DNA of 64,000 bases from NCBI RefSeq assembly GCF_003944765.1, contig NZ_RWIU01000002.1, positions 310,001 to 374,000 of the forward strand. The letters run 5' to 3'. Positions 11,304-39,032 of the stretch are shown in pieces. The stretch's first letter is position 1; every line of letters starts with the position of its first letter. The position numbers and the translations under genes are program-made. Source of the DNA: Hymenobacter perfusus (GTDB taxonomy: Bacteria; Bacteroidota; Bacteroidia; Cytophagales; Hymenobacteraceae). A model generated the notes under the pieces. That model was not told the DNA's origin. It saw only the letters and a program-made list of their open reading frames with translations, and did not search any database.

Positions 11304-11981
11304 ATGAAAATTCTGTTGGTTGAAGACGAACCCAAAGTGGCCTCCTTTCTGCACCAGGGCCTCACGGAGCAACATCACACCGTAGATCTGGCCGCCGATG
11401 GGGTGCTGGGGCTGCGCCTGGCCCAGGCCAATTCCTATGATCTGCTGATTCTGGATACGCTGCTGCCCGGCCTCAGCGGGCTGGAAGTGTGCCGGCAGGT
11501 GCGCGCCCACGATACCAGCGTACCCATTCTGATGCTCACGGCCCTGGGCGAAACCGACGATAAAATCCGGGGCCTCGATGCCGGCGCCGACGATTATCTG
11601 GTGAAGCCGTTTGCGTTTCAGGAGCTGCTGGCCCGCATCCGGGCCCTCACGCGCCGCCGCCACGACTCCCCCTCCGCCAACTCGGTCCTGCGCCTAGCCG
11701 ACCTTAGCCTTGACCCCAGCCGGAAGCTGGTGCAGCGCGCCGGCCAGACCATTCAACTCACGGCCCGGGAGTTTGCCCTGCTGGAATACCTGTTGCGCAG
11801 CCAGAACCGCGTGGTGTCGCGCGTGGATATTCTGGAGCACGTCTGGGAAACGTCCTTCGATACGGGCTCCAACGTCATCGACGTGTACATCAACTTCCTC
11901 CGCAAAAAACTCGATAAAGACTTCACCCCCAAGCTCATTCACACGCTGGTGGGCATGGGGTACGTGATGAAGGAAGAGTAG
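11304..11981 (+). CDS. OmpR-family response regulator
   Basis: A 225-residue DNA-binding response regulator. The receiver domain has the acidic pair at E7-D8, the phosphoacceptor D51 (LLILDTLLPG) and the conserved Lys in DDYLVKPF. The winged-helix output domain covers about 128-223 and ends in NVIDVYINFLRKKLD and HTLVGMGYV. The ATG at 11304 is chosen because the family consensus MKILLVEDEP begins there. Its kinase partner follows 154 bp downstream on the same strand. The regulator at 38355 is the same length and similar in sequence. The repeats upstream of the SulP gene, directly after this pair, are a candidate target (inference). Confidence 0.95.
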   Translation: MKILLVEDEPKVASFLHQGLTEQHHTVDLAADGVLGLRLAQANSYDLLILDTLLPGLSGLEVCRQVRAHDTSVPILMLTALGETDDKIRGLDAGADDYLVKPFAFQELLARIRALTRRRHDSPSANSVLRLADLSLDPSRKLVQRAGQTIQLTAREFALLEYLLRSQNRVVSRVDILEHVWETSFDTGSNVIDVYINFLRKKLDKDFTPKLIHTLVGMGYVMKEE

Positions 11982-12135: not shown

Positions 12136-13542
12136 ATGTCCATCCGTACCCGCCTGACGCTGCAATTTGCCGCTATTCTGGTTGTAACGCTGCTGCTGTT
12201 TTCGGCGGTGATTTACTTTTTTACCTACCAGTCGCGGCGGGAGGCGTTCAGTGAAAGTCTGTTTGCCCGGGCCCGCATTGTGGCCCACGTCTACCTCGAT
12301 GGTACCCGGCGGGAAGACGAGGAAAGCCGGGCTTCCTACCGGCGCTACCTGCGGCAGTTCTACCGCACCCTGCCCGAGGAGGAAGTGCGCGTGTTCGATA
12401 CCCGCAACCAGGTAGTGTTCGAGGAAGGCCTGGCGGGCCGCGAGGCCGTGCCGCAGGATTTGCTGCGCCTGGTGCGTACTGATGGCCGGGAAGTAGTGCT
12501 GGAAGACAGCTACCGCCAGACCGTGGGCCTGCTTTACCGTGACGCCATCCGGGGCGACTTTGTGGTGGTAGCTTCGTCCGTTGATGCCGACACCCGCCAG
12601 AAGCTCCAGGACTTGGCCACGGTGCTCACCTTCGGGCTGCTGGCTTCCTTTGTGATTGTGGGTATTGGGGGCTGGTTTTTTGCCGGCCAAGCCCTGAAAC
12701 CCATGAAACGTATTATTCAGGAGGTGGATAGCATCACGGCCTCCGACCTGCACCGCCGCCTGTCGCAGGCCGATGGGCAGGATGAGGTGTCGTTGCTGGC
12801 CCAGCGGTTCAATAGCCTGCTCAACCGCCTCGAAACGGCCTTTGCCGGGCAACGCACCTTCGTGCGCGACGCCTCGCACGAGTTGCGTACCCCGCTGGCG
12901 GCCATTATCGGGCAGCTGGAGGTGTCGCTGCTGCAGCAGGAGCGCAGCTCCCAGGAATACCGCCGGGTGCTGCAAAGTACCCTCGATGCGGCCCGGCTGC
13001 TCAAGGACCTCACCAATGGCCTGCTCCAGATTGCCCGCGCCTCCGACGACCCCTCGCAGGTCCCGCGAACCTTGTTGCGGCTGGATGAACTGCTGCTGCA
13101 GGCGCACGAGGAAGTGCACCGCCGTCACCCCACCTGCCGCATTGATCTGGACTTCAGCGAAACACCCGACGCGCCGCGCCGCGTGCCGTTCGGGGTGCTG
13201 GGCAACGAAGCTTTGCTCCTCTCCGCCTTCCTGAATATTCTGGAAAATGCCTGTAAGTTTTCCGTCGGTAGTCTGGCGCCGGTAGTAGCTACGCTCACCA
13301 CCTCCCGCACCCGCGTGCGTCTGACCGTGCGCGACCGGGGCGTGGGCATGACGGAAGCTGACCGCCAGCAGGTATTCGTGCCCTTTTTCCGGGCCGATGC
13401 TGTACGCACCGTGCCGGGCCACGGTATCGGGCTGCCGCTCACCGCCAAAATTATGCAACTACACGAAGGTGAAATCGTGGTGGAAAGTGAGTTGGGCCAG
13501 GGTACGGCTGTAACCCTGGATCTGCCAACGGCCATCGTCTGA
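12136..13542 (+). CDS. Sensor histidine kinase (HAMP type)
   Basis: A 468-residue membrane sensor kinase. Helix one is at about 9-30, a periplasmic sensor of about 130 residues follows, helix two is at about 162-184, and a HAMP linker starts LKPMKRIIQEVDSI. The dimerisation/phosphoacceptor box is ASHELRTPLAAIIG with H248. The ATPase domain has an N box (NILENACKF) and G boxes (DRGVGM, GHGIGLPL). It should phosphorylate the regulator encoded at 11304. The extracytoplasmic signal cannot be read from the sequence. The layout resembles CusS/QseC-type kinases, and the kinase at 36806 is a paralogue with the same domain order. Confidence 0.94.
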   Translation: MSIRTRLTLQFAAILVVTLLLFSAVIYFFTYQSRREAFSESLFARARIVAHVYLDGTRREDEESRASYRRYLRQFYRTLPEEEVRVFDTRNQVVFEEGLAGREAVPQDLLRLVRTDGREVVLEDSYRQTVGLLYRDAIRGDFVVVASSVDADTRQKLQDLATVLTFGLLASFVIVGIGGWFFAGQALKPMKRIIQEVDSITASDLHRRLSQADGQDEVSLLAQRFNSLLNRLETAFAGQRTFVRDASHELRTPLAAIIGQLEVSLLQQERSSQEYRRVLQSTLDAARLLKDLTNGLLQIARASDDPSQVPRTLLRLDELLLQAHEEVHRRHPTCRIDLDFSETPDAPRRVPFGVLGNEALLLSAFLNILENACKFSVGSLAPVVATLTTSRTRVRLTVRDRGVGMTEADRQQVFVPFFRADAVRTVPGHGIGLPLTAKIMQLHEGEIVVESELGQGTAVTLDLPTAIV

Positions 13543-13685: not shown

Positions 13686-13744
13686 TTTTTAATTAGTTTT
13701 TAATTTGCTTTTAACTAGGTCTTAACGAGCTGGCTGTAGACTTG
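13686..13744 (+). promoter_or_regulatory. Activator-type promoter: four 11-bp repeats plus -7 box
   Basis: Four direct repeats with TTAAT/TTAAC cores begin at 13689, 13700, 13711 and 13722, an exact 11-bp period. The last core starts 15 bp before TAGACTTG (13737-13744), a Bacteroidota-like -7 box with one deviation from TAnnTTTG. The SulP start codon lies 66 bp further on. The 11-bp period and the phase to the -7 box match binding of tandem OmpR/PhoB-family dimers (known for this family). The regulator encoded at 11304 is the nearest candidate (inference). Confidence 0.72.
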
Positions 13745-13810: not shown

Positions 13811-15418
13811 ATGTTGAAAGTTGCCCGGGTTTCCGAAACACCGAATATGCAGCGGCCCGCCGGTTTACCGTCGTCGCCGTGGCAGTCGCTGAGTAAAGAC
13901 CTGCCGGCCGGACTGGTGGTTTTTCTGGTGGCACTGCCGCTGTGCCTGGGTATTTCCCTGGCCTCGGGGGCACCGTTGCTGGCCGGCGTTATTGCGGGCA
14001 TCGTAGGGGGCGTGGTCGTATCATGGCTGAGCGGCTCGCAGTTGAGTGCCAGCGGCCCGGCGGCCGGCCTCACCAGTATCATTCTGGCTTCACTGAGCAC
14101 GTTAGGCTCCTTTGAAGCGGTATTGGCGGCCGTGGTTATTGCGGGTATTATTCAGGTAATTCTCGGGGTGCTCAAAGCGGGTATTATCGGGCTTTACTTC
14201 CCTACGTCCGTTATCCGGGGCATGCTGGCTGCCATTGGCCTCACGCTTATTCTCAAGCAGATTCCGCACCTGTTGGGGGCTGATGCCGACTACTTTGAGG
14301 ACATGACCTTCCTGCAGTTCGATGGGCAGAATACCTTCTCGGCTATCGAAAATGCACTGCAGGGAATCGGGGCTGGTTCTCTGTTGGTGGGGTTGGTGTC
14401 GTTGGGGGTGCTGTTGCTCTGGGAAGAGAAGGTAGTAAAGCGCGTGAAAGCATTACGGCTCATTCCCGGGGCCCTGATTGTGGTACTGCTGGCTATCGGG
14501 CTCAATAACCTGCTCGATGTGGCCGCTCCGGTATTGCGCATTCGGCCCCAGCATCTGGTAAATCTGCCCAACATCACCTCCTGGCACGACTTTACGTCCG
14601 CCTTTGCCAAACCCGACTGGTCGGCGCTGAAGCATCCGGGCTTCGTGATGGTGGCCTTCACCATTGCCGTGGTGGCGTCGCTGGAGTCTTTGCTGAGTGT
14701 GAAGGCAGTGGATAAGCTCGACCCGCACAAGCGCGTCACGCCAACCAACCGGGAGCTAATGGCGCAGGGAGCAGGCAATATCATCAGCGGCTTGCTGGGC
14801 GGCTTGCCCATCACGGCCGTTATCGTGCGCAGTTCGGCTAACATCAATGCCGGCGGGCAAACGCGCATGTCCTCCTTTTTTCATGGCCTGCTGCTGCTGG
14901 TGAGCCTGTTGTTTCTGGAGTCCATCCTGAATCAGGTGCCCTACTCGGCCCTGGCAGCGGTGCTGCTGGTGGTCGGCTACAAACTCACGAAACCCGCCTT
15001 ATACGTTACGCAGTGGCGGTTGGGGTGGCAGCAGTTCCTGCCGTTCATCGTTACCATTCTGGCCATTCTGTTTACTGACTTGCTAAAAGGCGTGACGGTT
15101 GGTCTGGCCATTGGCATCTTCTACATTCTGAAGGCCAATTATGAGTCGGCGTATTTTCTGAGCAAGCCGGCCTCGCAGCAGGCGGGTCCTGTCCACCTCA
15201 AATTGTCGGAGCAGGTATCCTTTCTCAATAAGGCCAGCATCGTGAAGGTGCTGGATGAGCTGCCCAACGACACCAACGTGCTCATTGATGGTTCCGACTC
15301 CTCGTTCATTGATTACGACGTGCTGGAAGCCATTGAGAACTTCCGTCTCTCAGCCCCGGAACGCGGGATTCAGCTGGAGCTGCGGGCCATTCCGCAGGTG
15401 CAGGTGCTGGGCCACTAG
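13811..15418 (+). CDS. SulP-family anion transporter, probable bicarbonate uptake
   Basis: A 535-residue SLC26/SulP transporter with 10-14 membrane helices. The N-terminal signature DLPAGLVVFLVALPLCLGISLASG and the NAGGQTRMSSFFHG region are typical of bacterial SulP proteins. The C-terminal 75 residues (about 460-535, FLNKASIVKVLDEL, NVLIDGSDSSFIDYDVLE) form a STAS-like cytosolic domain. A beta-carbonic anhydrase gene follows 110 bp downstream on the same strand. This pairing is recurrent and suggests bicarbonate as substrate, although sulfate cannot be excluded. A second in-frame ATG at 13847 is a possible alternative start. Confidence 0.9.
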   Translation: MLKVARVSETPNMQRPAGLPSSPWQSLSKDLPAGLVVFLVALPLCLGISLASGAPLLAGVIAGIVGGVVVSWLSGSQLSASGPAAGLTSIILASLSTLGSFEAVLAAVVIAGIIQVILGVLKAGIIGLYFPTSVIRGMLAAIGLTLILKQIPHLLGADADYFEDMTFLQFDGQNTFSAIENALQGIGAGSLLVGLVSLGVLLLWEEKVVKRVKALRLIPGALIVVLLAIGLNNLLDVAAPVLRIRPQHLVNLPNITSWHDFTSAFAKPDWSALKHPGFVMVAFTIAVVASLESLLSVKAVDKLDPHKRVTPTNRELMAQGAGNIISGLLGGLPITAVIVRSSANINAGGQTRMSSFFHGLLLLVSLLFLESILNQVPYSALAAVLLVVGYKLTKPALYVTQWRLGWQQFLPFIVTILAILFTDLLKGVTVGLAIGIFYILKANYESAYFLSKPASQQAGPVHLKLSEQVSFLNKASIVKVLDELPNDTNVLIDGSDSSFIDYDVLEAIENFRLSAPERGIQLELRAIPQVQVLGH

Positions 15419-15528: not shown

Positions 15529-16293
15529 ATGCAAGGCATCGAACCAATTCTGGACAATAACCGCAAGTGGGTTGAAGAAAAGCGGGCCAAGGACCCGGAC
15601 TTCTTCAACCGGCTGGCCGACGGCCAAAAGCCCAGATACTTGTTCATTGGCTGCTCCGATTCGCGGGTGCCGGCCTCGGCCATCACCGGCACCGGGCCCG
15701 GCGAAATGTTTGTGCATCGAAACATTGCCAACCTCGTTATTCACACCGATTACAACTTGCTGTCGGTGCTGCAATACGCGGTGGAAGTGCTGGGCGTGGA
15801 GGATATTATGGTGGTAGGCCACTATGGTTGCGGCGGTGTGGCAGCAGCAGCCAGCAACAAGCAATATGGCCTCATCGATGGCTGGCTGACCAACATCCGC
15901 GACGTTATCCGGATGCACGAAATGGAATTCCTGCGCATCAAGGACGACGATGCCCGCCTGCGTCGGTTGGTAGAGCTGAACGTGATTGAGCAGGTGCGCA
16001 ACCTCGCCAAAACCAGTATTATCCAGAATGCCCGCAAAGGAGCCAAGCCACCCCGTCTGCACGGCTTGGTGTACGATATCAAGGAAGGCCTGCTGAAGGA
16101 TCTGCAGGTAGAGGACAACCTGATTGCGGAACTGGAGCACATCTACGGCACCCATGCCATGCAGCATGCCGCCAAAGTGCTGGAGAAGGAAGTGGAGCAG
16201 CCCGGCCTCACCGCCGACAAACCCGAGCTGACGGATGAAGCGGCAAAGGAAACAAAAAAAGCAGGCAAAGAAACCATGCGTCAGACCAGCTAG
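15529..16293 (+). CDS. Beta-class carbonic anhydrase
   Basis: A 254-residue beta-carbonic anhydrase that interconverts CO2 and bicarbonate in the cytoplasm. The zinc ligands are C42, H98 and C101 (GCSDSR at 41-46 and GHYGCGG at 97-103), with the D44-R46 dyad present. The last 45 residues are a charged extension (Glu/Lys-rich) beyond the usual catalytic domain. It follows the SulP transporter gene and is probably co-transcribed, so imported bicarbonate could be converted in place. A strong terminator lies about 60 bp after the stop codon. Confidence 0.96.
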   Translation: MQGIEPILDNNRKWVEEKRAKDPDFFNRLADGQKPRYLFIGCSDSRVPASAITGTGPGEMFVHRNIANLVIHTDYNLLSVLQYAVEVLGVEDIMVVGHYGCGGVAAAASNKQYGLIDGWLTNIRDVIRMHEMEFLRIKDDDARLRRLVELNVIEQVRNLAKTSIIQNARKGAKPPRLHGLVYDIKEGLLKDLQVEDNLIAELEHIYGTHAMQHAAKVLEKEVEQPGLTADKPELTDEAAKETKKAGKETMRQTS

Positions 16294-29197: not shown

Positions 29198-32100
29198 CTA
29201 ATGCGCTAATACGGCCTGTTGCCGCTCGGGGTGCAGTTGCGGGTCGTCGGCGTAGTGGGTGTGCTCGGCGCGGTAGGCGCGTTCGAAAATCAGGGGGAAG
29301 ATGAACAGGGTGAGGATGGTGCCGGTGATGAGGCCGCCGATTACCACAATGGCCAGAGGCTTGGAGGTTTCGGAGCCGATGCCGGTGCTCATGGCGGCGG
29401 GCATGAGGCCGATGGTGGCCATCAGGGCCGTCATCACCACGGGGCGGACGCGGCTGGTGACGCCCTCGTGGATGCTGCGGTCCAGACTCATTTTGCGTAC
29501 CATATTCTGCTTGAACACCGATATCAGAATCACGCCGTTCTGGATGCAGATGCCGAACAGGGCAATGAACCCGATGCCGGCCGAAATGCTGAAGTTGGTG
29601 TGCGTAATCAGCAACGCCGCAATGCCGCCGATGATGGCAAACGGCACGTTCAGTAGCACCAGTCCGGCATCTTTCAGGTTGCCGAACAAAATGAACAGGA
29701 TGAAGAAAATCAGGCCCAATGAAACCGGCACCACCTGCGTGAGGCGCTGGGTGGCGCGGCGCTGGTTTTCGAAGTCGCCGGTCCATTTCATGGTGTAGCC
29801 TTTGGGCAGGCTTACCACGGCATTTACCTTTTTCTGGGCTTCCTCGATGGTGCTGCCCATGTCGCGGCCCCGGATGCTGAACTTCACGGCGGCGAAGCGC
29901 TGGTTATCGTCGCGGTAGATGAGGGAGGGGCCGTTGACGTCGCCGATGGTGGCAATTTCGGAGAGGGGAATGGTGGTGCCGTTCTGGGTGGGGACCATGA
30001 GGGCGGCAATTTCCTGGGGTGTCTGGCGGAACTGCTCCTGGTAGCGCACCCGGATGGGGAATTTCCGCTCGCCCTCGTACATCTGCGAGGCCTGCTTGCC
30101 GCCCACGGCCATTTCCAGCACCGCGTTGGCGTCGGCTTTGCTTACGCCGTACTGGGCCATGCGTTGCTCATCCAAATCAACGTGCAGCTCCGGCTGACCG
30201 ATGTTGCGCAGCACGCCCAAATCATCAATGCCTTTGATATTTTGGAGGACACCGTACACCTGGCGGCCTTTTTCCTCCATCAGCTTGAGGTCGGTGCCGT
30301 AGATTTTGACGGCAATAGAGCCTTTCACGCCCGAGGCGGCTTCCTCCACGTTGTCGGTGATAGGCTGAGAAAAGTTGAAATCCACACCGGGGAAGCGGTT
30401 GAGCTTTTCCTTCATGCCGGCAATCAGGGCTTCGCGCTTGTCTTTGTGCTTCATTTCGGCCTCCACTTCGGGGGTGTGCTTGAGCTGCACCAGAAACTCG
30501 TTGTTGTAGAAGCCAGTGGGGTCGGTGCCGTCGTTGGGGCGGCCGGTCTGGCTCACCACGTCGCCCACCTCAGGGAAACTCAGGAATACCCGGCGCATCT
30601 CGTTGCAGAGCTTGTTCGATTCATCCAGGCTGATGCTCAGCGGCAGCTGAGCCCGCACGTAAATGGAGCCTTCGTTCAGCTCGGGCAGGAACTCGGAACC
30701 CAGGAAGTGAAAGGCGCCCATGCCCAGCACCACAGCCACGGTGGCTACCAGCAGACTGGCGGTTTTGCGGGCGTAAGTGAAGGAAAAGAACCGCTCGGCC
30801 CCGCGGTTGATGCCCCGCACGAAGAAGTTATCCTTCTCCACCACGTTCTTTTTGAGCAGCAGCGAGGTGAGCACCGGCACCAGCGTGAGCGTGAAAATCA
30901 GGGCCCCCAGTAGGGCGAAACCCAGCGTCCAGGCCAGGGGCGAGAACACCTTGCCTTCCACCTTCTCGAAGGAGAAAATGGGCAGCAGGGCGGTGATGAT
31001 GATGGCTTTGGAGAAGAAAATGGCTTTGCCCATGTCGCGGCCGGTTTTCTTGATCAGGCCCAGCTTGGCTACTTTGTTGAACCGCTCCATGCCCATGCGG
31101 TGCGCCTTGTGGTCGAGGGCCACAAAGAGCCCTTCCACCATCACCACGGCCCCGTCGATGATGATGCCGAAGTCGATGGCGCCCATGCTGAGCAGGTTGG
31201 CCGACATGCCCTTCAGCCGGAGGCAGATGAAGGCAAACAGCAAGGCCAGCGGAATAATCACGCTCACAATCACCGTGGTGCGCCAGTCGGCCATGAACAC
31301 GAACACGATGACCGTGACCAGCACAATGCCTTCCAGCAGGTTGTGGATTACCGTTTCGGTGGAGAAGTCGATGAGCTGCTGCCGGTCGTAGAAGGTTTGA
31401 ATCTTCACATCGGAGGGCAGAATCTTCTCATTGAGGTCGGCTACTTTATCCTTGAGGCGGGCAATGACTTCAGAGGGATTTTCGCCTTTGCGCATCACCA
31501 CAATGCCTTCCAGCACGTCGTCGTTCAGGCCCCGGCCCACCTTGCCAAACCGCGGCAGCGCCGATTCGTGCACGATGGCCACGTCCTTCACCAGGATGGG
31601 GGCCCCGTTCACGTTCTTGATAACCGTGTTGTTGATGTCGTTGATGTTGTTGAGCAGGCCAATGCCGCGCACCACGTAGTTCTGCTGGCCCTCGTTTATC
31701 ACGTCGCCGCCCACGTTGATGTTGCTGCGCTGGATGGCGTTGTAGAGGTCGAGCGGGGTGAGGCCCAAGTCCTGGAGCTTGCCGGGGTTCACGCTGATTT
31801 CGTAGTCCTTCACCTCGCCGCCGAAGCTGTTCACGTCGGCCACGCCGGGCACGGCTTTCAGGTTGCGTTCCACCACCCAGTCCTGCAGGGTTTTCAGCTC
31901 GCGGGTGGTTTTGTTGTTGCTCTTGAGGGTGTAGCGGAAAATTTCGCCGGTGGGGCCGTAGGGCGGCTGCACGTCTGGGTCGGCGCCCTCGGGAAGGTCG
32001 GCCTGGCTGAGCAGGTTGTTCACCTGCACCCGGGCAAAGGCATCGTCCACGCCATCATCGAAAATCACCTTCACCACCGACAGCCCAAACAGGGTGGTGC

Positions 32101-32359
32101 TGCGGATGCTGGTTTTCTTCTGCACCGGGTTCAGCGCAATTTCGATGGGGGCCGTCACGAACTTCTCAATCTCCTCGGCCGAGCGGCCGGGCCACTGCGT
32201 GATGATGGTAATTTCGGTGTTGGTAACGTCGGGGAAGGCCTCGATGGGCGTATTCCGGTAGCTCATCACCCCGGCCACAATGACCACAAAGGTCATCAGG
32301 AACACGAAGCCCCGGTTTTTAAGCGAAAAGGCGATAATGCCCTGGATGAATTTGTTCAT
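29198..32359 (-). CDS. czcA: CzcA/CusA-type heavy-metal efflux RND pump
   Basis: A 1053-residue inner-membrane RND transporter with the usual 12 helices and two periplasmic loops. The heavy-metal subfamily motif in helix four is DFGIIIDGAVVMVE (D396, D402, E409), the proton-relay residues. The N-terminus (FIQGIIAFSLKNRGFVFL, NTPIEAFPDVTN) is typical. It exports divalent or monovalent metal cations using the proton gradient, together with the adaptor and TolC-like proteins encoded upstream. The metal cannot be assigned with certainty. It is the last gene of the minus-strand efflux cluster and ends at a bidirectional terminator. Confidence 0.95.
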   Translation of the reverse strand: MNKFIQGIIAFSLKNRGFVFLMTFVVIVAGVMSYRNTPIEAFPDVTNTEITIITQWPGRSAEEIEKFVTAPIEIALNPVQKKTSIRSTTLFGLSVVKVIFDDGVDDAFARVQVNNLLSQADLPEGADPDVQPPYGPTGEIFRYTLKSNNKTTRELKTLQDWVVERNLKAVPGVADVNSFGGEVKDYEISVNPGKLQDLGLTPLDLYNAIQRSNINVGGDVINEGQQNYVVRGIGLLNNINDINNTVIKNVNGAPILVKDVAIVHESALPRFGKVGRGLNDDVLEGIVVMRKGENPSEVIARLKDKVADLNEKILPSDVKIQTFYDRQQLIDFSTETVIHNLLEGIVLVTVIVFVFMADWRTTVIVSVIIPLALLFAFICLRLKGMSANLLSMGAIDFGIIIDGAVVMVEGLFVALDHKAHRMGMERFNKVAKLGLIKKTGRDMGKAIFFSKAIIITALLPIFSFEKVEGKVFSPLAWTLGFALLGALIFTLTLVPVLTSLLLKKNVVEKDNFFVRGINRGAERFFSFTYARKTASLLVATVAVVLGMGAFHFLGSEFLPELNEGSIYVRAQLPLSISLDESNKLCNEMRRVFLSFPEVGDVVSQTGRPNDGTDPTGFYNNEFLVQLKHTPEVEAEMKHKDKREALIAGMKEKLNRFPGVDFNFSQPITDNVEEAASGVKGSIAVKIYGTDLKLMEEKGRQVYGVLQNIKGIDDLGVLRNIGQPELHVDLDEQRMAQYGVSKADANAVLEMAVGGKQASQMYEGERKFPIRVRYQEQFRQTPQEIAALMVPTQNGTTIPLSEIATIGDVNGPSLIYRDDNQRFAAVKFSIRGRDMGSTIEEAQKKVNAVVSLPKGYTMKWTGDFENQRRATQRLTQVVPVSLGLIFFILFILFGNLKDAGLVLLNVPFAIIGGIAALLITHTNFSISAGIGFIALFGICIQNGVILISVFKQNMVRKMSLDRSIHEGVTSRVRPVVMTALMATIGLMPAAMSTGIGSETSKPLAIVVIGGLITGTILTLFIFPLIFERAYRAEHTHYADDPQLHPERQQAVLAH

Positions 32360-32585: not shown

Positions 32586-33680
32586 TTAATCGTTTAGCTC
32601 GTCGTAGACCAGCAGCTGGTTTTGGGCGATGATGTGCTCCCCGTCTTTCAGGCCCGATTGCACGTAGCTCACGTCGCCCACGGTTTTGGCAATTTTGACC
32701 TCGCGGGTTTCCACGTGGTGCCGGTCCCGGAACACCATCACGAAGTTGCGGTCCTTATCGAAGACCACGCATTTGGCGGGCACAGCCAGCATCTGCCGGT
32801 TTTCGGTGTTGAGCACCTTGATTTGGGCGTACATCTCGGGCTTGAGCTGGTAGCCGGGGTTGTTGAGCTTCACGCGCACCTTCATCACCTTGCTTTCGGG
32901 GTCGAGCACGTTGAACACCTTATCGATGCGGCCCTGGAAGTGTTTGTCGGGGTAGGAGAGGGTGGTCACGTCGGCCTGGTAGCCCTGCTGCACCTTGCTG
33001 ATGTCCGACTCAAACACGTTGGCCATGATCCACACGTCATCCAAGTTGCTCACCGTAAACAGGTTGCCCACGTTGTCGGCGTTGAACTGCATGTGGTCGG
33101 TCACGTTCTTCTCCGTGATGAAGCCCGAAATGGGGGCCCGCAACGTGTAGGTCCCATCGGCCGACACGCCGTACACGCCGAGCTGCTTCTGGCTCTTGCC
33201 CACGTTGCTTTGGGCTTTGCGCAGCTCCTGGCGGGCCAAACTCACGTCGCGCTCCGAGGCCAAGCCCGATTTGTACTGGTCTTCCAGTACCGAGAGGTTC
33301 TTGCGGGCAATATCCAGGTCGGTGCCGGCGGTGCTGCTCTGGTTTTGCAGGTCGGCAATTTCCCCGCTCTTGATGACGGCCAGCACCTGGCCCTTGGTTA
33401 CATGGTCGCCTAGCTCCACGCTCAGCTGCTCCACCACGCCGCCCACCAGCGGGTACACCTTCACGGTTTTGTCGCCGTCGGTGGCAATCTGGCCCGAGAG
33501 GTTCAGCTCGTCGCGCACGGGCTCCCGGCGCACCGTGTCAATCTTCAGCTCCCGCAACATCTGGTCCGACATCGAGAAGCCGGCTTCGGCCTTCTGCGGG
33601 GCGTCCGTTTCTTCAGATTTCGAGCAGCCCGTTAGCGTCAGCGAGAGGGCAAAGGGAAGTAAGGGGAGGAGGCGGTTCAT
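32586..33680 (-). CDS. RND efflux periplasmic adaptor (CzcB/HlyD type) 1
   Basis: A 364-residue membrane-fusion protein. The N-terminus is a lipoprotein signal with lipobox LTGC (MNRLLPLLPFALSLTLTGC). The domain order is usual: barrel-sandwich (VYPLVGGVVEQLSVELGDHV, DGTYTLRAPISGFITEKNV), a helical hairpin between the halves (about 105-170), beta-barrel, then membrane-proximal domain ending KDGEHIIAQNQLLVYDELND. It bridges the pump and the TolC-like channel. A second adaptor with the same ending (YKELND) is encoded at 35337 in the same cluster. Confidence 0.93.
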   Translation of the reverse strand: MNRLLPLLPFALSLTLTGCSKSEETDAPQKAEAGFSMSDQMLRELKIDTVRREPVRDELNLSGQIATDGDKTVKVYPLVGGVVEQLSVELGDHVTKGQVLAVIKSGEIADLQNQSSTAGTDLDIARKNLSVLEDQYKSGLASERDVSLARQELRKAQSNVGKSQKQLGVYGVSADGTYTLRAPISGFITEKNVTDHMQFNADNVGNLFTVSNLDDVWIMANVFESDISKVQQGYQADVTTLSYPDKHFQGRIDKVFNVLDPESKVMKVRVKLNNPGYQLKPEMYAQIKVLNTENRQMLAVPAKCVVFDKDRNFVMVFRDRHHVETREVKIAKTVGDVSYVQSGLKDGEHIIAQNQLLVYDELND

Positions 33681-33805: not shown

Positions 33806-35095
33806 CTATTCGGCGTTGAACACCGGGCGGCCCACGGCGTAGTTGAGCTGTTCGAAGGCGCGCACCCGGTTGGCGCGCAGGTTGTTGAGTTGCACCAGGT
33901 TGTTCTTGTAGCTCTCGTAGAAATCCAGGAACTCCACAATAGTGAGGTTGCGCTTGGCGTAGCTCTCATCAATGCCCTTCATCAGGCGGTCGAAGTCGGA
34001 GGTTTCGCGGGCGGTGCCCTGGTAGAGCTGGTCGTTCTGGCGGGCCAGGCGCCAGGCTTCCTGCACGTCGTTCTGCACCTGCAGCTGCTGCTGGCCCAGC
34101 TGGGCCTTGCTCACCTCAATCTGGTTTTGCGCCGTGCGGATGTTGCCCTGGTTGCGGTTGAACAGGGGCACGGCCACGCCCAGCGTGAGGGCGTTGTAGT
34201 TCTGGATGTAGTTGCCGGCCCGGTCGTACACGTAGCCCACGGCCAAGTCGGGAGTGGCCAAAGCGCGTTGGAGGCGCAGGTTCTGGGTTTGCTGCTGCAC
34301 GGCGGCCTGGCGGGCCTTCAGGTCGGCGCGGTTCACCTGGGCCGAATCGATGAGCTGCGCCTCGGTGCGGTTGGTCAGGCTCAGGGCTTTCAGGCGGTTC
34401 TGGTCGGCCTGGGGCAGGTAATAGGCCCCGCTGGTGTCGCGCATGAGAGTGCGCAAATCGGCTTGCTCGGCGGCAATGTCGTTGAGCAGATTCTGCCGCT
34501 CGTTGCGGAGCTGAAACAGGAAGGCCTTAAGCCGAATCACTTCTTTCAGAGCAATGTTGCCCTTGTCGTATTGGCCCTGATACAGACTTACGGTGCGCTG
34601 GAAGCTGGCCACTTCCTTGTCGTACACGCCCACGCTCTGCTGCTTGAAATACAGATCGTAGAAGGTGCTGCGGAGCTGGTAGCGCAGGGTGCGCAGCAAA
34701 TCCTGAAACGTGAACTGCTCCACCAATGCATTCTGCTGGGCCACGCTGGCGGCGGCTTTGCGGCGGCCGGCCAAAGCAAACAGCTGCTGCACCTGCACAA
34801 TGGAGTTGCCGGTTTTGGTCACGTCCAGCACCTTGCGCGTCTGCGGGTTGTAGGTGTTCTGCTCGATGGAAACCGTGGGGTTGTCCCAGAGCCGGGCCTG
34901 CAGAATCTGGGCCTCGGCGGCCGATACGTTATAGCGCTGGGCCAGCAGATTCAGGTTGTTCTGCACGAACCGCTGTTCGGCGTCGGAGAGGGTGAGCCGC
35001 ACCGTGTCGCCTGCGAGGGGAGCGGCCGAGGCGGTGCGGGTAGTGACGCCGCCGAGCAGCAGGGCCGTCAGCAGCAGAAAAAGGAAGCGTTGCAT
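33806..35095 (-). CDS. TolC-family outer-membrane efflux channel (CzcC-like)
   Basis: A 429-residue outer-membrane efflux protein with a signal peptide (MQRFLFLLLTALLLGGVTTRTASA). Two long coiled-coil halves follow (about 50-210 and 250-420, e.g. SVAQQNALVEQFTF, QNQIEVSKAQLGQQQLQVQ), the repeat organisation of TolC proteins. It forms the exit duct for the RND pump. The ATG at 35095 begins the signal peptide. The activator-like promoter at 35120-35175 is directly upstream, so this gene can start its own transcript inside the cluster. Confidence 0.92.
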   Translation of the reverse strand: MQRFLFLLLTALLLGGVTTRTASAAPLAGDTVRLTLSDAEQRFVQNNLNLLAQRYNVSAAEAQILQARLWDNPTVSIEQNTYNPQTRKVLDVTKTGNSIVQVQQLFALAGRRKAAASVAQQNALVEQFTFQDLLRTLRYQLRSTFYDLYFKQQSVGVYDKEVASFQRTVSLYQGQYDKGNIALKEVIRLKAFLFQLRNERQNLLNDIAAEQADLRTLMRDTSGAYYLPQADQNRLKALSLTNRTEAQLIDSAQVNRADLKARQAAVQQQTQNLRLQRALATPDLAVGYVYDRAGNYIQNYNALTLGVAVPLFNRNQGNIRTAQNQIEVSKAQLGQQQLQVQNDVQEAWRLARQNDQLYQGTARETSDFDRLMKGIDESYAKRNLTIVEFLDFYESYKNNLVQLNNLRANRVRAFEQLNYAVGRPVFNAE

Positions 35096-35119: not shown

Positions 35120-35175
35120 CAAGAGTACGCCCCCCGTATTAGGACTGAATTAGAGGTAGATTAGAAACGGATTAG
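35120..35175 (-). promoter_or_regulatory. Activator-type promoter of the TolC-like gene: four 11-bp repeats plus -7 box
   Basis: ATTAG (CTAAT on the coding strand) occurs at 35138, 35149, 35160 and 35171, exactly every 11 bp. The proximal core is 15 bp upstream of TACTCTTG (minus strand, 35127-35120), a -7 box with one deviation. The -7 box ends 25 bp before the ATG. The same elements at the same distances precede the second adaptor gene at 36416. An OmpR-family regulator gene in the same cluster is the natural candidate binder (inference). Confidence 0.8.
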
Positions 35176-35344
35176 AGGAGAAAAATTTTCTCAGAAAGTC
35201 CATTTGCGGCTGATTGGTTTGGTTTTGCGTGGCTGCCGAAATAGAATAATCCGGCCGCTGCGCCAACTCCCGCTCCGAGGTCCACATGGCCCGCTCCACC
35301 CACTGCCGCGCCGTCCCGGCCGTTAGTTCGTCGGGCCTAGTCAT
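35150..35344 (-). CDS. Possible small protein overlapping the adaptor stop
   Basis: A 64-codon frame whose ATG overlaps the last codons of the second adaptor gene, an arrangement that favours coupling. The first 35 codons mostly end in G or C like neighbouring genes (MTRPDELTAGTARQWVERAM). No family is recognised and no signal peptide or membrane helix is visible. The 3' end runs through the TTAG repeats of the TolC promoter, so the C-terminus is not free to be conserved. It may be a chance frame. Confidence 0.28.
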   Translation of the reverse strand: MTRPDELTAGTARQWVERAMWTSERELAQRPDYSISAATQNQTNQPQMDFLRKFFSSNPFLIYL

Positions 35345-36416
35345 TGAGCTCCTTGTAGATAAGCAGCGGGTTGCCGGTCACCACTTGCTCGCCGGGCGTC
35401 AGGCCGCTGCGCACGAAGCTCATGCCGCCCACCGTCTGGCCGGGCTCCACCAGCCGGGTTTCCACCTTCCCCGATTCCTGCAATACCAGCGCGTAGCGGC
35501 GGCCGTTGGCAAATACCAAGCTGCCGGCCGGCACGGCGGGTAGCTGCTCGGGCAGGGTGCTGGTGAGCTGCACCTGGGTGTACATGCCGGGCTTCAGCAG
35601 GTGGCCGGGGTTGCTGAGCCGCACCCGCACCTGCAGGCTCTTGCTGGTGGCGTGCAGTAGGTTGAACACCTTGTCAACCTGTCCGGTGAACACCTTATCG
35701 GGATAGGCCAGCGTCCGGATTTCGGCCGGCACGCCCACCCGCACGCCGGCAATGTCGGCCTGGAACACGTCGGCCAGCACCCACACTTCGTCCAGGTTGG
35801 CCAGGGTGAACAAGGCATCCACCTGCCCCGGCTCAAACTGCATACCGGCGCTGACATGCTTAGCGGTGATGGTGCCCGCCAGCGGGGCCCGCACCACGTA
35901 CCGCTCCTGCGACGCGCCCAGCACCGCCTGCTGCTGCTGCACCCGGCTCACCTCGGCCTGGGCCGTGCGCCACGCCGCCCGGGCCTGAGCCAGCTCCAGC
36001 TCCGAGGCCATGCCATCGGCGTGCAGGTCCTCGGTGGCGGCCAGCTCCCGGCGGGCGGTAGCCAGGTTTACGGCTGCTACCTGGGTTTCCTGCGCCAGCC
36101 CTGCTACCCGCGTGCTGCGCACCACGGCCAGCACCTGACCCTTGCTCACCTCATCGCCCAGCGTAACGGGCACCGACTCCACCACGCCTCCCGCCACCGG
36201 GTACACGGGGGCCGTACGGTCGGCATTGACTACCACCTGCCCGCTTAGCTTGAGTTGGGTTTGCACGGGGGCCAGGCGCACGGTATCGGTAACGAGGTGG
36301 GCCAGTTGGGGCGCGGCGGCCGGCACCAAGGCCTCCGCAGCTTCTTCGGAGCAGGCAGTCAGACTCAGGCCCGAAGGCACCAGCAGCAGGCTGGCAAAGT
36401 GGAATAAACGGTTCAT
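35337..36416 (-). CDS. RND efflux periplasmic adaptor (CzcB/HlyD type) 2
   Basis: A 359-residue membrane-fusion lipoprotein with lipobox LTAC (MNRLFHFASLLLVPSGLSLTAC). The barrel-sandwich halves (VYPVAGGVVESVPVTLGDEV and ERYVVRAPLAGTITAKHV) flank a short helical hairpin, and the beta-barrel and end domain are present (GEQVVTGNPLLIYKELND). It is a diverged paralogue of the adaptor at 32586. ATG 36416 is chosen over an upstream TTG. The promoter at 36441-36496 lies directly upstream. Two adaptors for a single pump suggests either alternative or mixed adaptor assemblies. Confidence 0.93.
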   Translation of the reverse strand: MNRLFHFASLLLVPSGLSLTACSEEAAEALVPAAAPQLAHLVTDTVRLAPVQTQLKLSGQVVVNADRTAPVYPVAGGVVESVPVTLGDEVSKGQVLAVVRSTRVAGLAQETQVAAVNLATARRELAATEDLHADGMASELELAQARAAWRTAQAEVSRVQQQQAVLGASQERYVVRAPLAGTITAKHVSAGMQFEPGQVDALFTLANLDEVWVLADVFQADIAGVRVGVPAEIRTLAYPDKVFTGQVDKVFNLLHATSKSLQVRVRLSNPGHLLKPGMYTQVQLTSTLPEQLPAVPAGSLVFANGRRYALVLQESGKVETRLVEPGQTVGGMSFVRSGLTPGEQVVTGNPLLIYKELND

Positions 36417-36440
36417 CGTATCAGCAGCACAAGTGAAGTG

Positions 36441-36496
36441 CAAGCTTACGCCGCCAGTATTAGGACCCGGTTAGAGCCACATTAGAAACTGATTAG
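36441..36496 (-). promoter_or_regulatory. Activator-type promoter of adaptor 2: four 11-bp repeats plus -7 box
   Basis: Cores ATTAG/GTTAG on the plus strand start at 36459, 36470, 36481 and 36492, an exact 11-bp period. The proximal core is 15 bp upstream of TAAGCTTG (minus strand, 36448-36441), which ends 25 bp before the ATG. Every spacing equals that of the TolC promoter at 35120-35175, although sequence between the cores differs. This is the expected layout for tandem OmpR-type dimers activating from just upstream of -7 (inference). Confidence 0.82.
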
Positions 36497-36575: not shown

Positions 36576-36800
36576 GAACGAGGTAGAGACGCAATACTTT
36601 GCGTCTCGTCGTTGCTGATGTTGTTAGTTCGTAGGATGAGCAGAACGATGTAGAAACGCAACACTTTGCGTCTCGTCGTTGAACGAATGGGACTGCACGC
36701 CGCCGCGTAGCTTCAACAACATCGGCAATGGATGAGACGCGCAGTTTAAACAACATCAGCAACGACGAGACGCACAGTGTTGCGTCTCTACACCGTTCTA
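36576..36800. repeat. Compound palindrome array, family A
   Basis: Two left arms (GAACGAGGTAGAGACGC at 36576 and a variant at 36641) and two right arms (a partial one near 36731 and GACGAGACGC ... CTACACCGTTCTA ending at 36800) form a nested inverted array. Individual units hold the hairpin GAGACGCAA ... TTGCGTCTC. A fragment of family B (AACGTCATGCAGTGGCG) is at 36541. The array occupies the spacer between the kinase stop and the adaptor 2 promoter. Confidence 0.75.
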
Positions 36801-36805
36801 AACCG

Positions 36806-38155
36806 CTACAAAACCACCTCCACCACTGTGCCCTGGCCCGGCTGGGAGCTGAGGTGCACCTCGCCGCCGTGCAGCTGAATAATCTTGCGGGCCAAGGGCA
36901 GCCCCACGCCGTGCCCCACCACGTGGCGGGCGTTATCGGCCCGGAAAAACGGCTGAAAAACCTGCGGCAGCGCCTTTTCGCTGATGCCGATGCCGTGGTC
37001 CTGCACCCGAATGTAGCGCCGCCCGGCCCGGTATTCCAGCTGCACCACCACGGGTTGGTCGGCGGGTGAATACTTCAGGGCGTTGTCGAACAGGTTGGTA
37101 AAGGCCCGGCTCAGCAGCTGCCGGTTGCCCTTGATTTCCAGCGCTTCCGCCTCTTCCGGCAACTGGCCAAAGGTGAGCTGCACCCGGCGCCGCTGCTCCG
37201 GCAGCACCGCCTCGCGCGCCTCCGACAGCAGCTCATCCAGCCGGATTTCCTCCTGGGCTCCCGTGTTGGTCTGGGTCAGGTCGAGCAGGTTGTTGATGAG
37301 CAGCTTGAGTTGTTGCAGCTCGTGTAGCACCGAGGCCACCGCCTCCCGGTACGCGGCCGGGTCCCGCTCCCGGTTCAGCAGCACCTGCAGCTCCCCGATG
37401 GTGGCCGTGAGGGGCGTGCGCAGCTCGTGCGAGGCATTGCTGACGAAGGTGCGCTGCGTCTCAAAACCATCTTCCAGCCGTTCCAGCATGCGGTTGAAGG
37501 TGCGGGCCAGGCGGGTTATTTCGTCCTGCTCGTGGCTGATGCCCTCGTTTACGCGCAGGTGCAGATCCTGGGTGGTAATGCGGTCCACCTGGTCGTTGAC
37601 GGCGGCAATGGGGGCCAGGGCCTTGCCCGAAAATACCCGCCCGGCCACGTAAATCACCACCAGACTCACCACAAAAATGCTGGTCAGAATCATCACCAGA
37701 TGTTCCAGCCGCGCCGCGCCGGAGTGGTTCTGCGCGGCGGCTACAATAATGAACTGGCCCTGGTTGTCGGTGTAAAACAGGCCAATGGCCTGCCGGCTGC
37801 CCAACGTGAAATACACTTCTTTCTCGGTGATAATCCGGGTGAGAATCCGGTCGGGAATGTCTACGCGGTCATCCTGTTCAATGAAGCGCGGCTGCAGCTG
37901 GTCGTCGTAAATCTGCAGCACCTCGCCGGTGAGGGTGCGCAGGTAGCGGCGCTGAAACTCTCGAAACGCCTCGGCCCGCAACTCGTCCTGCTCCAGAAAT
38001 ACGTAGCCCGTCACCTCGGCCCGGTCGCGCAGGCGCTGGTGAAACTCCTCGTGGGTGTAGTCGGCCTGCAGCAGGTAAATCGTCGTCATCACCCCCAGCA
38101 GAATCACGGCCACTACCCCCAAAAACAGCCACGTCAATCGGTTCCGGATGGTCAT
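36806..38155 (-). CDS. Sensor histidine kinase of the efflux cluster
   Basis: A 449-residue membrane kinase, CusS-like in layout. Helix one is at about 8-29, a periplasmic domain of about 120 residues follows, helix two is at about 153-172, then HAMP (ALAPIAAVNDQVDRITTQDL). The phosphoacceptor box is NASHELRTPLTATIG with H243. ATPase motifs include FDNALKYS, DHGIGI and GHGVGLPLARK. It probably senses periplasmic metal and signals to the regulator at 38355 (inference from position). The upstream regulator gene is separated by a family B palindrome rather than overlapping. Confidence 0.94.
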   Translation of the reverse strand: MTIRNRLTWLFLGVVAVILLGVMTTIYLLQADYTHEEFHQRLRDRAEVTGYVFLEQDELRAEAFREFQRRYLRTLTGEVLQIYDDQLQPRFIEQDDRVDIPDRILTRIITEKEVYFTLGSRQAIGLFYTDNQGQFIIVAAAQNHSGAARLEHLVMILTSIFVVSLVVIYVAGRVFSGKALAPIAAVNDQVDRITTQDLHLRVNEGISHEQDEITRLARTFNRMLERLEDGFETQRTFVSNASHELRTPLTATIGELQVLLNRERDPAAYREAVASVLHELQQLKLLINNLLDLTQTNTGAQEEIRLDELLSEAREAVLPEQRRRVQLTFGQLPEEAEALEIKGNRQLLSRAFTNLFDNALKYSPADQPVVVQLEYRAGRRYIRVQDHGIGISEKALPQVFQPFFRADNARHVVGHGVGLPLARKIIQLHGGEVHLSSQPGQGTVVEVVL

Positions 38156-38354: not shown

Positions 38355-39032
38355 TCACTCCTGAGCCCGCAGCACGTAGCCCATGCCCACTACCGTGTGA
38401 ATGAGCTTGCGGGGGAAGGGCTTGTCGACTTTGTTGCGCAGGTAGTTCACGTACACGTCCACCACGTTGGAGCCGGCGTCGAAGGAGTCCTCCCACACGT
38501 CGGCGGCCAGCTCGGCGCGGCTGAGCACGCGGCCGGGGTGGCGCAACAGCAACTCCAGCAGCCCAAATTCGCGGGCCGTGAGCTTGAGCGGCTGCCCGGC
38601 CCGCGTCACGGTTTTGGCGGCCGAGTCCAGCGTCAAGTCCTCGAATTGCAGCACGGCGCTTTTGGCCTGCTGGCCCCGGCGGCGGGTGAGGGCCCGCACC
38701 CGGGCCACCAATTCCGGAAAATCGAAAGGCTTCACCAGGTAGTCATCGGCTCCGCCGCCGAAGCCGTGCAGCTTGTCCTGGGTGGTGCCCAAAGCCGTGA
38801 GCATGAGCACCGGCGTCTGCTGGTCCTGCGCCCGGATGGCTTCCAGCACCTCCAGCCCGCTGAAGTAGGGCAGAATTACGTCCAGAATAATCAGCTCGTA
38901 GGCGTGGGAGAGGGCCAACTGCCGCCCAAACCGCCCATCGTAGGCCACTTCCACCTCAAACCCTTCCTCCTCCAGCCCCCGCTTAATAAATGCCGATACC
39001 TTAGGCTCATCTTCAACCAGCAGAATTTTCAT
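38355..39032 (-). CDS. OmpR-family response regulator of the efflux cluster
   Basis: A 225-residue response regulator (CusR/CopR-like). The receiver has E7-D8, phosphoacceptor D51 (LIILDVILPYFSG) and DDYLVKPFDFPELV. The winged-helix domain ends in NVVDVYVNYLRNKVD and HTVVGMGYV, very similar to the regulator at 11304. It is the first gene of the efflux cluster. The ATG at 39032 matches the family start MKILLVEDEP. The twin 11-bp repeat promoters at 35120 and 36441 are its likely targets (inference). Confidence 0.95.
   Translation of the reverse strand: MKILLVEDEPKVSAFIKRGLEEEGFEVEVAYDGRFGRQLALSHAYELIILDVILPYFSGLEVLEAIRAQDQQTPVLMLTALGTTQDKLHGFGGGADDYLVKPFDFPELVARVRALTRRRGQQAKSAVLQFEDLTLDSAAKTVTRAGQPLKLTAREFGLLELLLRHPGRVLSRAELAADVWEDSFDAGSNVVDVYVNYLRNKVDKPFPRKLIHTVVGMGYVLRAQE

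Follow-up and report, generated by a model that had tools for sequence, protein, structure and literature searches.

Two genes inside a predicted heavy-metal efflux cluster of Hymenobacter perfusus are preceded by promoters of the same layout, each with four short repeats in front of its -7 box, and the question raised by this locus is which protein would recognize these repeats and whether it would switch the two promoters on or off. The window analyzed here is the whole stretch of 64,000 nucleotides (contig NZ_RWIU01000002.1, positions 310,001 to 374,000), and the coordinates of its features are counted from its first letter.

Two promoters of equal geometry inside the efflux cluster

The cluster is encoded on the minus strand in the order regulator, kinase, array 2, adaptor 2, array 1, TolC-like protein, adaptor 1 and CusA/CzcA-type pump; as the regulatory pair comes first, both arrays are located inside the cluster and behind this pair. 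The regulator RR1 (38355..39032) is a CusR/CopR-like response regulator of the OmpR/PhoB family with Response_reg and Trans_reg_C domains and the recognition helix NVVDVYVNYLRNKVD. Its best curated family is TIGR01387 (CusR/CopR), with a score of 259.1 bits that stays below the cut-off of 279.2, and the copper/silver family PRK09836 gives 220.1 bits, which is also below the cut-off (420). The sensor histidine kinase (36806..38155; HAMP, HisKA and HATPase_c) scores 207.5 bits against TIGR01386, whose cut-off is 292.6. They are followed by the periplasmic adaptor 2 (MFP2, 35337..36416; HlyD_D23, and RND_mfp above cut-off), the TolC-like outer-membrane efflux protein (33806..35095; OEP), the periplasmic adaptor 1 (MFP1, 32586..33680) and the pump (29198..32359), which belongs to the CusA/CzcA family of heavy-metal RND pumps according to a TIGR00914 score of 925.4 bits (cut-off 701.5). 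The DFG...DGA motif of this pump presumably points to divalent metals. Two copies of a palindromic sequence (GARACGCAA...TTTGCGTCTC) lie between the kinase and array 2 (36580-36690) and resemble a dispersed repeat.

Array 1 (35138..35175, minus strand) is located upstream of the TolC-like gene and reads CTAAT-N6-CTAAT-N6-CTAAT-N6-CTAAT, and array 2 (36459..36496, minus strand), upstream of adaptor 2, reads CTAAT-N6-CTAAT-N6-CTAAC-N6-CTAAT; both were identified by pattern match and by their orthologous arrays. On the coding strand the layout of both is four CTAAY cores with a period of 11 bp, followed by 10 bp and a -7 box of the form TAnnCTTG, namely TACTCTTG for array 1 (35120..35127) and TAAGCTTG for array 2 (36441..36448), both on the minus strand and kept in relatives. 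The preliminary description had placed the cores at 35138, 35149, 35160 and 35171 and at 36459, 36470, 36481 and 36492 in exact steps of 11 bp, and this is what we found (plus-strand coordinates). It was also right that the remaining distances are equal at both promoters, but their values have to be corrected: the gap between array and box is 10 bp instead of 15 bp, a number that had been counted from the far end of the core, and the box lies 24 bp instead of 25 bp before the ATG (at 35095 and 36416).

With up to three mismatches, the array pattern gave four matches in the window, two without any mismatch, which are arrays 1 and 2, and two with three mismatches each, which are the same arrays shifted by 11 bp; no match was found at this tolerance in 100 shuffles of the window. 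The whole 5.1-Mb genome contains nine CTAAY-array matches with up to three mismatches, and arrays 1 and 2 are the only exact ones, the other seven carrying two or three mismatches and including the two shifted versions. In other genomes, the first ATG, which need not be the start codon, lies 23-25 bases after the box in 28 of 46 arrays that precede an OEP gene. The core period and the distance from array to box are conserved across genomes, and the spacing from box to ATG is no strict rule.

The preliminary description had further stated that the bases between the cores differ, which is too simple, as 19 of the 28 non-core positions (spacers and 10-bp gap) are identical between arrays 1 and 2 (68%). 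It is a serious possibility, though one we lean slightly against, that promoter and adaptor gene were duplicated together long ago, so that the equal geometry was inherited and not independently selected. Besides the shared non-core bases, the matches of adaptors 1 and 2 to the same families speak for such an old event, which would be compatible with both arrays being operators of RR1. The duplication does not look recent, as already argued before: at 11 twin loci, arrays within one genome share 53% of their non-core bases, versus 57% for first arrays and 66% for second arrays between genomes.

The array and RR1 across Hymenobacter

The CTAAY array (up to one mismatch) was detected in 66 of 120 genomes of the genus, compared with four of 120 for the backwards control, and an RR1 orthologue with at least 73% identity is encoded in 60 of the 120. 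The array is present in 59 of the 60 genomes with the orthologue versus seven of the 60 without it (Fisher p 9e-25, phylogeny ignored, the 73% cut-off having been chosen after both lists had been seen). If the cut-off is lowered to at least 66%, which brings in a sister clade of regulators, the numbers are 59 of 73 versus seven of 47 (p 5e-13, phylogeny ignored). The sole orthologue genome missing at up to one mismatch (G077) holds an array copy with two mismatches (L231). In 57 of the 59 genomes the array lies less than 16 kb downstream of the RR1 orthologue on the same strand; for G094 and G108, array and regulator are listed on different contigs. Furthermore, 80 regions of the genus were retrieved, 51 of them with an RR1 orthologue, and in 50 of these 51 the array is situated between the kinase and the first efflux match, the single miss being a contig of 3.5 kb (L233). 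A search for autoregulatory arrays with the CTAAY pattern (at least 18 of 20 letters) gave none in the 3 kb preceding RR1, across the 51 regions. This linkage, both by genome and by position between kinase and efflux genes, supports the previous assignment of the arrays to the regulator at 38355, and the genome-wide scan that had been proposed ties the array to gene starts, to RR1 and to the efflux cluster, with exact matches at arrays 1 and 2 alone.

Array matches without an orthologue occur in seven genomes, which weighs against the assignment. One of them, in G025, is a flawless tandem repeat of 11 bp; the assemblies of G018 and G107 are highly fragmented, the matches in G075 and G076 lie near another regulator, and those in G115 and G117 are without explanation. 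In the regulator tree, L182 and L187, which are just above 73% identity, group with the sister clade despite their four- or five-repeat arrays.

The 80 regions hold 87 arrays, and 62 of these have a TTG at the place predicted by the 10-bp gap; the other 25 include paralogous and long arrays. From 41 representatives of the 62 (less than 80% identical) we built the consensus TTCTAATCcGTtTCTAATg..cCTCTAAt.cgg.cCTAAT-N9-GtA..cTTGCA, in which N9 has weak preferences only. Because the search had asked for the cores and the TTG, nothing can be concluded from their conservation; among the letters that it left free, those conserved are TT in front of the first core, G in front of the box, A within the box and CA behind it. 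The array with its -7 box at 10 bp is better conserved than the flanks, and boxes lacking TA occur frequently (14 of 41). According to the available text of one study (PMC7366714), the -7 box of Bacteroidota has the consensus TAnnTTTG; in B. fragilis it is accompanied by a TTTG near -33, and in Flavobacterium johnsoniae the -33 motif was not found. Six of our 41 representatives have a TTG in the -33 area, near the chance expectation of 12%, and as this area lies inside the array, the absence of a TTG is partly forced and weak evidence.

The sequence, the geometry, the conservation and the genetic linkage of array and regulator are established directly. From these comparisons of sequences we consider it very probable that arrays 1 and 2 are operators of RR1, predicted to activate two transcripts of its own cluster. 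We infer binding by RR1, its dependence on phosphorylation, a tetramer on the DNA and activation, which may proceed as follows. The neighbouring kinase would phosphorylate RR1, and four RR1 molecules would align on the same side of the DNA in head-to-tail order, with one molecule for each 11-bp turn and (T)CTAAY core; two tandem dimers on the four cores, as suggested before, are plausible. Located 10 bp before the -7 box, such a filament would occupy the position of the -33 element and recruit RNA polymerase, so that two transcripts could be switched on, one from adaptor 2 and one from the TolC-like gene.

A location directly upstream of the -7 box is suited to blocking as much as to recruiting, and RR1 might instead act as a repressor, whose filament blocks the polymerase until a signal releases it. 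We regard this as quite unlikely. The lack of a recognizable -33 TTG in 35 of the 41 promoters is a weak argument against it, as the array fills that place, but in related units the arrays are 21, 22, 32 or 30-63 bp away from the box, which makes blocking less likely, and the metal regulator AgrR works as a type II activator at the majority of its investigated promoters, according to the accessible part of PMC7380067.

Returning to RR1 as an activator, the number of repeats and the distance to the box vary in units other than its own two promoters. In a paralogous pump cluster, whose regulator is 56-62% identical, four repeats lie 21 bp from the box; in the second pump unit of some RR1 clusters, an array of four to seven repeats is 30, 41, 52 or 63 bp away from it, and the distances in other units rise in 11-bp steps. 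At up to one mismatch, a four-repeat array is missing from the sister clade of regulators (66-72% identity to RR1, 13 genomes); all 13 genomes carry two repeats, CTAAT-N6-CTAAT, exactly 10 bp before TAGnCTTG and upstream of an adaptor match, with TTAAT as second repeat in three of the 13. Arrays thus consist of two, four or as many as seven 11-bp units. Among 395 genomes drawn evenly from the class, six contain an exact four-core array with box, and three of these are Hymenobacter; the rarity of this combination beyond the genus also weighs against the operator reading.

Some loci deviate from the composition of the cluster. In the sister clade (L219-L230 and L232) the two-repeat operator precedes the adaptor gene (295 aa in L220), and no matches to a pump or an outer-membrane protein were found in these retrieved regions. 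At L185 (7703-8056; G036), two arrays are about 316 bp apart, and as no adaptor-2 match lies between them, adaptor 2 seems to have been lost from this sequence and its array retained; G069 and G081 have arrays of similar spacing (array coordinates only). Arrays of six repeats at L184, L204 and L205 have no adjoining pump and lie about 3 kb from a regulator with 51-52% identity, and an array of five repeats at L191 and L144 also has no adjoining pump, with no matches to the six cluster proteins.

Paralogous regulators and the first base of the core

The window contains a third array, which was overlooked in the preliminary description. Array 3 (13689..13726, plus strand) reads TTAAT-N6-TTAAT-N6-TTAAC-N6-TTAAC, has no mismatch to a pattern that asks for geometry only (four times NTAAY, 10 bp, TAnnYTTG) and is followed after 10 bp by the -7 box TAGACTTG (13737..13744, plus strand). 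Upstream on the same strand are RR2 (11304..11981), a paralogous response regulator with the helix NVIDVYINFLRKKLD and 58-59% identity to RR1, and the histidine kinase of RR2 (12136..13542); behind array 3 follow a SulP-family permease (13811..15418, plus strand; Sulfate_transp) and a carbonic anhydrase (15529..16293, plus strand; Pro_CA). The geometry-only search with up to three mismatches gave nine matches in the genome, and the three exact ones are arrays 1-3. The geometry of array 3 (up to one mismatch) is present in 118 of the 120 genomes of the genus, that of the backwards control in three of 120. In 40 of the 41 genomes for which both coordinates are listed (array list to G061, regulator list to an E-value of 6.5e-82), a TTAAY array lies within 6 kb downstream of an RR2-type regulator; the exception is G022 with a distance of 28 kb. 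For G006 and G048, response regulators with about 61-62% identity are listed, and a TTAAY array was not found at up to one mismatch.

As the paralogues share this geometry, cross-binding is conceivable, and the true binder of arrays 1 and 2 might be another regulator of the OmpR/PhoB family, e.g., the paralogue RR2 or RR3, or PhoB. We hold this to be very unlikely, since the CTAAY array tracks the RR1 orthologues (59 of 60) and adjoins them (57 of 59), and RR2-type regulators have a TTAAY array of their own within 6 kb, in 40 of the 41 genomes with both listed. RR1 is thus kept as the predicted binder of arrays 1 and 2.

Further sites of this kind occur outside the window. A third paralogous regulator of the same genome (57% identity) is located near an RND-type unit (L315, G000:C9:802500-813500), where two weaker four-core arrays (13/16 core matches each) lie 10 bp from YTTG, with CTCAY as core 3, and five regions with regulators related to this one have one or two sites of 12-14/16 each. 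Sites with the same period and other cores, with one or two mismatches to the generic pattern, precede a TonB-dependent receptor and a GNAT plus acyltransferase protein (L242 and L245; G000:C7:760941 and 870377), and similar sites exist in other genomes of the genus. The GNAT plus acyltransferase protein resembles the ornithine-lipid enzyme OlsF, and sites of this type are perhaps the pho boxes of Bacteroidota.

Paralogous regulators seem to use the same grammar, with the half-site base set by one residue of the recognition helix, where RR1-type regulators have Tyr (mostly C in the DNA) and RR2-type regulators have Phe (mostly T). In an ungapped alignment of the recognition helix this position is Tyr220 of M. 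tuberculosis PhoP, which ranks third by score among solved relatives. In the PhoP-DNA structure, as given in the available text of PMC4832192, Tyr220 forms a hydrogen bond with C5 of the motif T4-C5-ACAGC; matched by its position after T, this C5 would be the C of TCTAAY. At all loci with an array, Tyr goes with C 235, T 20, A 4 and G 3, Phe with T 85 and C 3 and Leu with T 4, a count that is biased because most loci were retrieved by the CTAAY or TTAAY patterns. It comprises 71 of 97 Tyr, 23 of 43 Phe and one of two Leu regulators for which an array was found; three Gln rows (C 6, T 1) were dropped because the array was judged to belong to the neighbouring regulator. Loci picked by protein alone outside the genus gave Tyr with C 14 and T 6, Phe with C 3 and T 17 and Leu with T 4 (pooling Phe and Leu as C 3, T 21 gives Fisher p 1.4e-4, the half-sites not being independent). 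Behind these regulators of the class an array was detected in 12 of 36 cases (Tyr 5/12, Phe 6/22, Leu 1/2), a low yield that weighs against the operator reading as well, and 24 of 36 loci gave none.

In a tree of 86 regulators with part of the genus set, the residue changes eight times, and the base five times with strict assignment (55 rows) or seven times with relaxed assignment (66 rows, 11 of them assigned by hand). Independent pairs of residue and base number one on well-supported branches and four or six on the best tree, and with so few supported switches the tree test cannot reach significance. There are also exceptions, as L278 is a Tyr regulator with T in three of four half-sites and L276 one with T in two of four, and regulators with His at this position (L316 and L319) have mixed or T-type cores. 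In view of the exceptions, of the 24 loci without array and of the few switches in the tree, the Tyr/Phe code is offered as a hypothesis. It states that one residue and one base insulate the paralogues, the residue at the position of Tyr220 reading the first base in each of the four half-sites, with Tyr selecting CTAAY and Phe (or Leu) selecting TTAAY, with repeated switches in Bacteroidota while the period, the copy number and the 10-bp gap stay fixed; we think this possible, if somewhat more doubtful than not. Pairs of paralogues within one genome would allow the insulation of two-component systems at the level of DNA to be tested by a single residue swap.

In the wider scan, near-perfect 11-bp tandem repeats with CTAAY are common in MAGs (e.g., L047, L127, L148 and L156, unrelated minisatellites as far as seen), and 83 of 120 listed loci are without an array of clearly differing spacers. 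Non-trivial arrays, i.e., those with differing spacers, are present at 37 of the 120 loci among the matches listed, and in 14 of these 37 a TAnnYTTG box follows after 10, 22 or 32 bp. Among the same listed matches, all 14 boxed arrays adjoin a kinase or regulator match versus three of the 23 others, and three of the 14 are Hymenobacter records. Despite the frequency of simple repeats, it is hardly credible that arrays 1 and 2 arose by chance, as a minisatellite or as a DNA-bending sequence without a specific protein, since the cores are kept while the spacers differ, the shuffles gave no match, the distance to the box is fixed and boxed arrays keep to kinases and regulators; these readings were set aside, as was a recent duplication after the non-core comparison of the twin arrays.

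Comparison with known operators

The Pho box sits next to the -10 element, in the place of the -35 element, and the PhoP boxes of B. subtilis as well as the CiaR boxes are tandem repeats with an 11-bp period, with cores and promoters other than those described here. In E. coli the Pho box consists of 11-bp direct repeats with seven conserved and four variable positions, and the C-terminal domain of PhoB is found on two of them (PMC2648988, available part). For M. tuberculosis PhoP, the accessible text of PMC4832192 gives a 7-bp motif with a strict 4-bp spacer and therefore an 11-bp period, which is bound as a tandem dimer, and three or four motifs in a row are bound more tightly. Arrays 1 and 2 share with these operators the direct repeats at an 11-bp period and the position adjoining the -7 box, with a gap of 10 bp, and RR1 is a winged-helix Trans_reg_C regulator genetically linked to the array; the operator type is Pho-box/PhoP-like and already known. 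Compared with PhoB and the E. coli Pho box, the 11-bp direct repeats are the same, whereas the core is CTAAY and not CTGTCAT, the box is the -7 box of Bacteroidota and the target is a metal efflux cluster. Compared with M. tuberculosis PhoP, the period is again the same, but the motif (TCACAGC in PhoP), the phylum and the regulon differ.

A literature search, which covered subscription journals thinly, found no operator of this kind described for metal regulators of Bacteroidota. It also returned no papers on metal two-component systems of Hymenobacter or on the specificity of OmpR-family regulators among paralogues, and nothing useful on Bacteroidota pho boxes, on Bacteroidetes metal regulators or on the B. 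subtilis PhoP and CiaR boxes. The present analysis gives one class of Bacteroidota metal-efflux clusters a regulator, a putative operator and a promoter layout.

The proteobacterial regulators CusR, CopR, PcoR and AgrR have in common with RR1 the closest family (below cut-off in our case), the kinase partner and a metal RND target. According to the accessible part of PMC7380067, the operator recognized by CopR, PcoR and AgrR is an inverted repeat of 16 bp, with additional direct half-sites at some operators of AgrR. In contrast, arrays 1 and 2 consist of direct repeats only, with all four cores on one strand. A Pho-box-like operator for a CusR-like metal regulator therefore seems to be new, as the proteobacterial relatives bind inverted repeats, and this suggests that the symmetry of the operator, inverted versus direct repeats, may differ among CusR-like metal regulators.
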